From positions 620,001 through 684,000 of the forward strand of contig NZ_CP020946.1 of assembly GCF_002208115.1 (NCBI RefSeq): DNA of 64,000 nt, read 5' to 3'. This document shows positions 21,198-58,586 of this stretch, in pieces. Position numbers and translations under genes: made by a program. Every line of letters begins with the position of its first letter. The stretch's first letter is position 1. Source of the stretch: Bdellovibrio bacteriovorus. GTDB lineage: Bacteria; Bdellovibrionota; Bdellovibrionia; Bdellovibrionales; Bdellovibrionaceae. The notes beneath the pieces were generated by a model. The model searched no databases. It was not told the DNA's origin and saw only the letters and a program-made list of their open reading frames with translations.

Positions 21198-22778
21198 TTA
21201 ACGAGCTTCCACAGAGGCATCAACGGCGGCCTGGGCATTGACCAGACCCGAACCGTAGCGATTGTCGCCGTTCGGAAGAATCGGCGTGGCGGTTTTCATC
21301 AGCAAAGTCTTCACTTCGGAAGGCTTTAATTTTTTATTGGCCGCCTTCACCAAAGCAGCAACGCCAGCGACATGTGGGGTCGCCATCGAGGTGCCGAAGG
21401 TTTCTTTGTAACTTGTGAGATCTGACTTCAGGCTGACCAAAGTATTTGGGGATCTTTTGATGGCGGCGCGGATTTTTTCCCCTTCAGCCTGCTCGACAAA
21501 AAAGCCCACCGCAAACAGCACGTTGTCTTGTTCAAACAGACGCGTTTCGATCAGGCCCGGTCTGTTGTTGGCGACAATCACGCTGGTGGCGCCGGCGCGC
21601 ATGGCATTGCGGATCTGGTCCTCAATCGGAGTGACGCCGCTTAAAGTGACCAGCACGTGCTTGTCTTTGACGTCTTTCCCGGCAAAGTCTGCGAGCTCTC
21701 CCAAACCGCAGTCCACAACAGGGCGGGTCTGCTCCAGGTACGGAGTTGCGGTGCCCTTAAAGTGATAAGCTTTAAGAGTCTGCGGTCCATGGGTGTCATT
21801 AAGGGTCACCGTGCTGAAACGGCCCGAGCCCACGGGGATTGTTGATACGATTTGAACTCCAGGCGCCACCACGGCCACTTCCGGTCCGTACTGGGAAAAC
21901 ACCGCGTGCTTCAGGTTCTTGTCAACGGCACCCACTGCGATCACAGACGGGGCGGAGGCGGGGAAGTAGACTTCGTTGATGCCATAGTTGCCGGTTGCTG
22001 CCACCACGGTGATGCCGGCCTGATCTGCACGCAACAAAGCGGCTTTTTCCGCAGGGGACCCGCTTGGGCTTCCCAAAGAAAGATTCATCACGTCCACTCC
22101 CTGATCAATCCCCCAGGAAATGCCAGCGACGATGGCGGTGTTGGAACAACCTGAATCCACACAGACTTTGGCGGCCAGCAGTTTTGCATTCGGTGCAACA
22201 CCGGAAAAGCCACTGCCATCTTCTGCAGCGGCAATGGTGCCGCCCACATGGGTGCCGTGACCGGTGCGGTCGTAGAAATCATTGATGCCATCTTCACCCG
22301 TGAAGTTGCGGCCTCGTTCAAAGTTCGGCGCCAGCGAAGGATGAGACGCATTCATTCCGCTGTCCAACACCAGAACGCGGATGCCCTCGCCTTTGTTGGA
22401 TTTGCTCCATGCTTGCGGGGCTTTCACCGCTTCAAGACCCCAAGGGGTGCCGGGATGAACGACATCGATGTTGGCAAGAACCGCGCCCTCACTGATGCGT
22501 GGGGGAGCCGGATGGAAGTATTCTTTTTCGACATACGCCACGCCCGGAGCGGATTTCAGGCGTTCGATGTCAGCGGGGTTTTCCGTGTCGACGATGAAGG
22601 TGTGAAGTTGCGGAAGACTTTTTTCGATCGTGCCGGGCAGGGACTGGGACCACGTGCCACGGGTGCTCAGTGTGCGCTGGAAAGCCGAGGCATCTTTCAT
22701 CATCACAATCGCGCGTGCCGCCAGGGCCTGGGAACTGGTGGAAAGAACGAGCAGAAAAGAAAAAAAGGTGAACTTCAT
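21198..22778 (-). CDS. secreted subtilisin-like serine protease (S8) with PA domain
   Basis: A 526-residue exported protease: signal peptide MKFTFFSFLLVLSTSSQALA, an inhibitor-I9-like propeptide (about 20-85), then the subtilase domain. Catalytic motifs are VLVLDSGMNASHPS (Asp), GHGTHVGGTIAA (His) and GTSMATPHVAGVAAL (Ser). Between the His and Ser regions lies a protease-associated insert (about 335-440, HVLVTLSGVTPIEDQIRNAM), common in subtilases and thought to bind substrate. It probably cleaves prey or surface protein. The start codon sits in the loop of a perfect hairpin, so translation may be regulated. Confidence 0.93.
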   Translation of the reverse strand: MKFTFFSFLLVLSTSSQALAARAIVMMKDASAFQRTLSTRGTWSQSLPGTIEKSLPQLHTFIVDTENPADIERLKSAPGVAYVEKEYFHPAPPRISEGAVLANIDVVHPGTPWGLEAVKAPQAWSKSNKGEGIRVLVLDSGMNASHPSLAPNFERGRNFTGEDGINDFYDRTGHGTHVGGTIAAAEDGSGFSGVAPNAKLLAAKVCVDSGCSNTAIVAGISWGIDQGVDVMNLSLGSPSGSPAEKAALLRADQAGITVVAATGNYGINEVYFPASAPSVIAVGAVDKNLKHAVFSQYGPEVAVVAPGVQIVSTIPVGSGRFSTVTLNDTHGPQTLKAYHFKGTATPYLEQTRPVVDCGLGELADFAGKDVKDKHVLVTLSGVTPIEDQIRNAMRAGATSVIVANNRPGLIETRLFEQDNVLFAVGFFVEQAEGEKIRAAIKRSPNTLVSLKSDLTSYKETFGTSMATPHVAGVAALVKAANKKLKPSEVKTLLMKTATPILPNGDNRYGSGLVNAQAAVDASVEAR

Positions 22779-22798
22779 GGGTCAGAAGTTCACCTTTT
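22763..22798 (-). promoter_or_regulatory. perfect hairpin over the subtilisin start codon
   Basis: A 13-bp inverted repeat (AAAAGGTGAACTT with AAGTTCACCTTTT, loop of 10) spans the start. The only Shine-Dalgarno-like AAGG lies in the 5' arm, the ATG begins in the loop, and the 3' arm is followed by more T, as in a terminator. It could block ribosomes or stop transcription in one state. Confidence 0.6.
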
Positions 22799-22851
22799 CG
22801 TGTCTATATGTAAAGGGGCTGTCGGGGCCTCGTGAAAGCTTTTCCCGGGTG

Positions 22852-23520
22852 TCAAAACACTTTACGGGGAGTTTTCTCTTTCAAAGCTTCCTCGACCCAG
22901 AATTGCACGCCATGGTGATCCTGGATGTTCTTCATATAGGCTTTGACCATTTTGTCTTTGATCTGAATTTTGTAAGACAGGAAACGGAAGACAATCGGCG
23001 CAAAGAAGGCATCGGCGATGCAGAAATCACCAAACAGGTAAGGCCCTTCGCTGACTTTCAAAGCCGTGGTCCACATTTCCAGGACACGGTTGATGTCGGC
23101 GATGGTTCCTGGAGTCAGATGGCGGATTTCTTCAGAGTGTTTCAAATCCATGCTCAGTTGGGAGCGCAGGGAGGCAAAACCGGAATGCACTTCCGCCGCG
23201 TAAGTGCGGGCCAGCGCGCGGGCCCCGATGTCTTCAGGCCACAGTTTGGCTTCCGGGGAAAGCTCATTCAGGTATTCGGCAATCGCCAGGGAATCCCACA
23301 GGATAATTTTACCTTGTTTCAAAGCCGGCACTTTTCCGGATGGAGAGAACTTGGCGATCTGAGCCGCCGTTTTCGGCTGATCCAGGGTGATATTGATTTC
23401 ACGGAATGGCAGGCCGGATTGCACGGCCACCAGCCACGCCCGCATGGACCACGATGAAAAGGTTTTGTCTCCGATGATCAGGTCAAAATACGGTTTGTCG
23501 CTGTGAACGTGATAGGCCAC
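22852..23520 (-). CDS. glutathione S-transferase family protein
   Basis: A 222-residue cytoplasmic protein with an N-terminal thioredoxin-like GST domain (FDLIIGDKTFSSWSMRAWLVAVQSGLPFREINITLD, then SPSGKVPALKQGKIILWDSLAIAEYL) and an all-helical C-terminal domain. The SPSGKVPAL cis-Pro and D-S-x-A-I-x-E-Y-L motifs bind glutathione. Start is GTG 23520 after GGAGGT. The substrate is unknown; roles in detoxification or redox balance are typical. Confidence 0.9.
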   Translation of the reverse strand: MAYHVHSDKPYFDLIIGDKTFSSWSMRAWLVAVQSGLPFREINITLDQPKTAAQIAKFSPSGKVPALKQGKIILWDSLAIAEYLNELSPEAKLWPEDIGARALARTYAAEVHSGFASLRSQLSMDLKHSEEIRHLTPGTIADINRVLEMWTTALKVSEGPYLFGDFCIADAFFAPIVFRFLSYKIQIKDKMVKAYMKNIQDHHGVQFWVEEALKEKTPRKVF

Positions 23521-58552: not shown

Positions 58553-58586
58553 AAAAAAGGGTGTCTCGTTTTGAGACACCCTTTTT
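58553..58586. terminator. terminator after the heme-MCP gene
   Basis: GGGTGTCTC and GAGACACCC form a perfect nine-bp stem flanked by A6 and T5. The chemoreceptor gene ends 12 bases away on the minus strand. Confidence 0.85.

Follow-up and report, generated by a model that had tools for sequence, protein, structure and literature searches.

A perfect hairpin covers the start codon of a secreted subtilase gene of Bdellovibrio bacteriovorus and is read, with a probability of about 0.6, as the terminator of the upstream glutathione-S-transferase (GST)-like gene merged with the protease start, serving as a stop signal and as a lid on read-through RNA; a damping effect on the protease mRNA is also probable. 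The locus lies in a stretch of 64,000 nucleotides of contig NZ_CP020946.1, referred to as the window, and its features are given in Table 1. As proposed here, the hairpin and its U-tract would form an intrinsic (Rho-independent) terminator of the GST gene, which in the short intergenic gap would have become fused with the protease's translation start. The 5' arm would double as the Shine-Dalgarno (SD) region of the protease, while the 3' arm and the U-tract would double as the first signal-peptide codons. RNA polymerase leaving the GST gene would be halted at the hairpin, and in read-through RNA the ribosome site would be paired away, so that no secreted protease would be made from GST transcripts. 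For the protease itself, transcription would be driven by a separate conserved promoter about 35-65 nt 5' of the ATG. Its own transcript would probably start near the foot of the hairpin and thus carry it, with a low protease output unless the stem is opened.

Table 1. Features of the GST-protease junction, with positions in the window
Feature	Position	Strand	Remarks
Secreted subtilase, 526 aa	21198..22778	-	Domains Peptidase_S8 and PA; MKFTFFSFLLVLSTSSQALA taken as signal peptide by eye
U-tract TTTTTTTCTTTT	22755..22766	-	Overlaps the end of the 3' arm
3' arm GAAGTTCACCTTTT	22763..22776	-	Carries the G of the ATG and codons 2-6; four species have identical codons 1-6
Loop TGACCCAT	22777..22784	-	8 nt in the window; 3' end is A and T of the start codon
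5' arm AAAAGGTGAACTTC	22785..22798	-	Contains SD-like AGGTGA (22790-22795); identical in 5 of 6 orthologues
Promoter-like element AAAGCTTTCA-N14-CCCCTTT	22812..22842	-	Conserved in six orthologues
GST-like gene, 222 aa	22852..23520	-	Directly upstream of the protease, same strand

As read from the sequence, the minus-strand hairpin (22763-22798) has 14 perfect pairs and a loop of 8 nt, and the scan tool counts 15 pairs with one G-T pair allowed. The perfect hairpin that the earlier note placed over the subtilisin start is real, but its length is 14 perfect pairs and not 13. In the other three species with a perfect hairpin, the loop measures 9 nt. The surroundings are also as the earlier note described them, with the ATG at the loop edge and the 3' arm within the signal-peptide codons: the start codon (22778-22776) has its A and T in the loop and its G as the first base of the 3' arm, the remainder of this arm encodes codons 2-6 (K F T F F), and the T-run TTTTTTTCTTTT comes after it. 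Directly after the 3' arm, the minus strand reads TTTCTTTTC. The terminator scan gave 15 pairs (5 G-C), a loop of 8 and at least 5 T in 8; with 5 G-C among the 14 stem pairs, the G-C content is rather low. On the plus strand, 22763-22798 has the tail TTTTCGTG, without a good T-tract, and because of this poor tract the hairpin is not efficient-looking as a bidirectional terminator.

A chance origin of the 14-bp stem is excluded, since no equally long stem, nor any of at least 13 bp, occurs in 40 random 64-kb sequences (first-order Markov, same dinucleotide make-up). The window itself holds four perfect stems of at least 13 bp, counting the hairpin under study, and two of at least 14 bp with a loop of 3-9, the second being at 58554-58586. 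The fold of 116 nt reaches -30.4 kcal/mol vs -19.9 for shuffles (z -3.3), with 0 of 200 shuffles as good. No alternative fold of 22740-22855 was seen, the minimum-energy structure being equal to the centroid structure, and no Rfam family matched in the window at gathering scores.

Sequence features of an intrinsic terminator are found at this site: a G-C-containing stem, a short loop, an immediate U-rich tract and a position after a same-strand gene. This same-strand gene had not been considered in the earlier note. The GST stop codon ends at 22852, which is 73 nt from the protease ATG and 53 nt from the hairpin, and a consensus scan found no second terminator-like hairpin on the same strand in the gap. 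The next same-strand terminator-like hairpin, at 24391-24362, has a matching style with an A-tract, a stem and a T-tract. In having a stem, a short loop and a U-tract after a same-strand stop, in the A-tract/U-tract style of 24391-24362, the hairpin is like other intrinsic terminators; unlike those, it lies over the start and first codons of the next gene and not in the gap. The shape, the position after the stop and the phylogenetic association are as would be expected for a terminator of the GST gene.

A census of T-tailed hairpins (perfect stem of at least 10 bp, loop 3-9, at least 6 T in 8 near the 3' end) covered 20 stretches of 20 kb across the genome and the window, together 464 kb with 430 genes according to a simple own caller. 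Tallied per strand, so that many places count twice, the census total is 47 hairpins: 43 intergenic, 3 within genes and 1, the hairpin under study, over a start codon. In the 400 kb outside the window, none of the 39 comparable hairpins overlaps a start codon. A distance of at most 100 nt after a same-strand stop is seen for 37 of the 47, the hairpin under study being at 53 nt after the GST stop, and 40 of 47 have AAA at the beginning and TTT at the end. Because of these figures, the hairpin is considered ordinary in form and exceptional in place.

According to PMC2965389, rimP-leader type 5' terminators are likewise short and conserved, precede a gene and have no larger conserved sensor domain. 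That motif, however, is located in the 5' UTR, whereas here the start codon is inside the hairpin, and the distance from the end of the preceding same-strand gene is 53 nt. The filter described in PMC2965389 discards terminators that are nearer to the upstream than to the downstream gene, to set aside the terminators of upstream genes, and it targets the same ambiguity as that of the GST-protease hairpin.

Subtilases of the same kind are present in 24 of 24 genus genomes, but an orthologue in only six. These six form one clade (support 100/99), and the orthologue set is this clade only, the other matches in the genus being paralogues or weaker; L015 and L025 (frames cut or broken) were excluded from the tree on account of their length. 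Outside the genus, no further orthologues came from a family-wide search of 66 genomes at E 1e-150, and the search among named relatives yielded one distant locus (L032), which was left out. The perfect hairpin is found in the window genome, G001, G006 and G007, with a GST gene directly upstream in all four, i.e. in 4 of 4 GST-linked genomes vs 0 of 2 with another same-strand upstream gene. In G023, one of these two, the 5' arm is identical and the 3' arm is changed, giving one mismatch and two G-U pairs, and in the other, G019, the hairpin is absent at the ATG. Instead, the promoter spacer of G019 contains AAGGGG...CCCCTT (L005 3099-3119, minus strand), a terminator-like hairpin followed by U-rich sequence, and its 3' arm is the CCCCTT of the promoter-like element. 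As the loop limit of the terminator scan is 8, the L007 hairpin (loop 9) is missed by it; the degraded L006 hairpin is unreported as well. The pattern of orthologues and GST genes fits a terminator that would be needed after the upstream gene and that, in the lineage with the GST link, came to lie over the protease start.

Elsewhere in the genus, nine GST orthologues (73-80% identity; a tenth homologue, more distant at 44% identity, is not counted) are not followed by this protease. By our own reading of the sequences, six of these nine have a clear T-tailed hairpin within approximately 120 nt of the stop, one is ambiguous and two are without a hairpin. The four GST-linked genomes form one group (94/92) in the GST tree, which captured 7 of 13 GST rows, and because of this grouping the association of GST and hairpin may go back to a single event in their ancestry. 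In the protease tree, G007 is placed outside the other five with weak support (87/75) and long branches.

Codons 1-6 (18 bases) are the only identical run of at least 12 bases across the four perfect-hairpin coding sequences. Among the 32 five-codon windows with all residues shared, the codons are identical in two, beginning at codons 1 and 2. For comparison, the codon identity at shared residues is 0.39-0.70 among the four species, and between the window and G007, which share 52% of residues, 43% of the codons are identical at shared residues. Covariation in the arms across relatives, which the earlier note had put forward as a check, is absent: the score is reached by 417 of 500 shuffles, and the single cell changed on both sides is that of G019, which has no stem. 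As covariation is absent, the case for selection on the arms would be one of strict conservation and not of compensation, with the rest of the same coding sequences as baseline. Poor arm conservation in close relatives had been named as a refutation; the arms are kept in the close group but not in the two orthologues with other upstream genes. Several observations count against the GST-terminator reading, namely that G023, which has no GST, keeps an identical 5' arm and part of the stem, that the stem G+C is on the low side (5 of 14), and the missing covariation.

The promoter-like element (AAAGCYTTCA-N13/14-CCCCTTT) is located 5' of the hairpin position in 6 of 6 orthologues, whichever gene is upstream. 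With a spacer of N12-16, it occurs once per genome in the six protease-bearing genomes and 0 times in the other 18. The fuller element at 22812-22857 on the minus strand is TTTTGACA-N6-AAAAGCTTTCA-N14-CCCCTTTA, where the TTTTGACA 5' of the two-block element is also invariant. We infer from this conservation that the element is the protease's own promoter or a control site. The -10-like block CCCCTTTA presumably resembles sigma-32 sites. No sigma-70 promoter was found in the GST-protease gap by consensus scan. As given in PMC3627812, the attack-phase FliA consensus is TTAAG-N16-CCGATA, and an attack-phase TSS mapping exists for HD100. A FliA (sigma-28) promoter was rejected, this motif being absent from the gap by eye. 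With a conserved promoter-like element 5' of it, the hairpin is probably part of the protease's own transcript; if the element is a promoter, transcription would start at about -25, with the whole hairpin at the 5' end of the mRNA. If correctly placed, this promoter would put the terminator in the protease mRNA too, a cost for which the terminator reading has the weakest explanation. An mRNA carrying the hairpin would leave room for the earlier idea of a switch.

That the only SD-like site is hidden, as claimed in the earlier note, agrees with the folds. The 5' arm includes AAGG (22796-22793), which is 14 nt 5' of the ATG, and on reading the sequence no SD-like stretch other than AGGTGA (22795-22790) is present near the protease ATG. 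A protease start further upstream is ruled out by an in-frame TGA two codons before the ATG. The predicted probability of the SD being unpaired is about 0 in the four perfect-hairpin species for transcripts starting at or before -16, and the stem is predicted to collapse only with transcript starts at about -11 or later. Folded from -30 to +33, the protease start region is the third most paired of 391 sampled genes, in a ranking where the gene starts come from a crude own caller and the top two may be mis-called. In the closed state, the SD of the protease is thus predicted to be paired. SD-sequestering hairpins, e.g. RNA thermometers, have the SD and the AUG in or beside the stem. This is also the case here, but unlike in such hairpins the stem is perfect and very stable, with a U-tract behind it.

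The earlier note proposed an RNA switch or attenuator, i.e. a 5'-leader attenuator or SD-hiding switch of the protease itself that is opened only in some predation phase. Such a device is possible but rather unlikely. It agrees with the SD predicted to be fully paired, a start region that is the third most occluded of 391, the U-tract, the arms invariant in four of the six species, and the promoter-like element kept upstream in 6 of 6 orthologues, from which the mRNA probably begins before the hairpin. The same element is kept in G023 and G019, however, where the stem is degraded and absent, respectively, and a plain GST terminator accounts for the same features. In an attenuator, the hairpin lies between the promoter and the coding start; here the promoter-like element is upstream, but the hairpin includes the start codon. 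Neither an attenuator or riboswitch sensor domain or Rfam match (in the window) nor an exclusive alternative structure (in folds of 22740-22855) was found, and a sensor in trans is possible. The pairing of an SD switch should be kept with compensatory changes, but the perfect stem is present in 4 of 6 orthologues and the covariation that a switch would leave is absent.

An unlikely, more elaborate variant is a 'double lock', where one element would combine the GST terminator, the ribosome-site lid and the signal-peptide coding. Expression of the protease would then need both the firing of its own promoter and the opening of the stem, for instance by a loop-pairing RNA or a phase-dependent factor, and short RNAs from the promoter to the U-tract would arise as a by-product. 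It is improbable that the hairpin is unselected, with the SD-like AAGGTGA and the N-terminal K-F-T-F-F merely happening to be complementary: G023 does keep the 5' arm despite partly lost pairing, as if the SD itself were selected, but 14 perfect pairs are unexpected by chance (0 in 40 random 64-kb sequences) and the identity of codons 1-6 in four species compares with 0 such runs elsewhere in the coding sequence. Very improbable is a DNA operator, in which the inverted repeat GGTGAACTTC-N8/9-GAAGTTCACC, perfect and just 3' of the promoter-like element, would serve as the downstream binding site of a dimeric regulator; this was rejected as there is no other close site in 24 genomes (none elsewhere with fewer than 2 mismatches; at N8 spacing and at most 3 mismatches, G000 has the locus site and 5 others, each with 3 mismatches; with N5-12 spacing and a variable 3' half site, the sole match outside the locus is one in G006), the loop length varies between 8 and 9, and G023 loses the 3' half.

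Returning to the GST terminator merged with the protease start, such an arrangement would be of relevance for a predator that carries many secreted proteases and has to avoid their untimely production. With a terminator fused to the start codon of one of them, a single 14-bp stem, partly in codons, would give both gene insulation and translational silencing. It would also be an example of a terminator that constrains how the following coding sequence begins, an effect open to misinterpretation in codon-based analyses. According to PMC6060812, inverted repeats in E. coli are depleted just before start codons, and a conserved exception is for this reason noteworthy. Judged by title and abstract, no description of the locus or of a terminator over a start codon was found in the open literature, nor, for protease expression, a publication naming the gene.

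A conserved leader is also present at a paralogous subtilase (G000:C1:1642834-1644553, plus strand; locus L031) and in the L008-L030 paralogues. Its 19-base block GGTTCCAAAAGAGTACTTG occurs exactly once per genome in 20 of the 24 genus genomes, with a 7-bp hairpin (GGACTTC...GAAGTCC) and a G-rich SD (GGGGGG) behind it. In many single-sequence folds, this GGGGGG is predicted to pair with an upstream CCTCTCC-like stretch. The covariation in the paralogue leader hairpin is slight, with a compensatory change in 1 of 7 pairs. As a putative SD-hiding RNA switch, the L031 leader makes a stronger candidate than the hairpin at 22763-22798.
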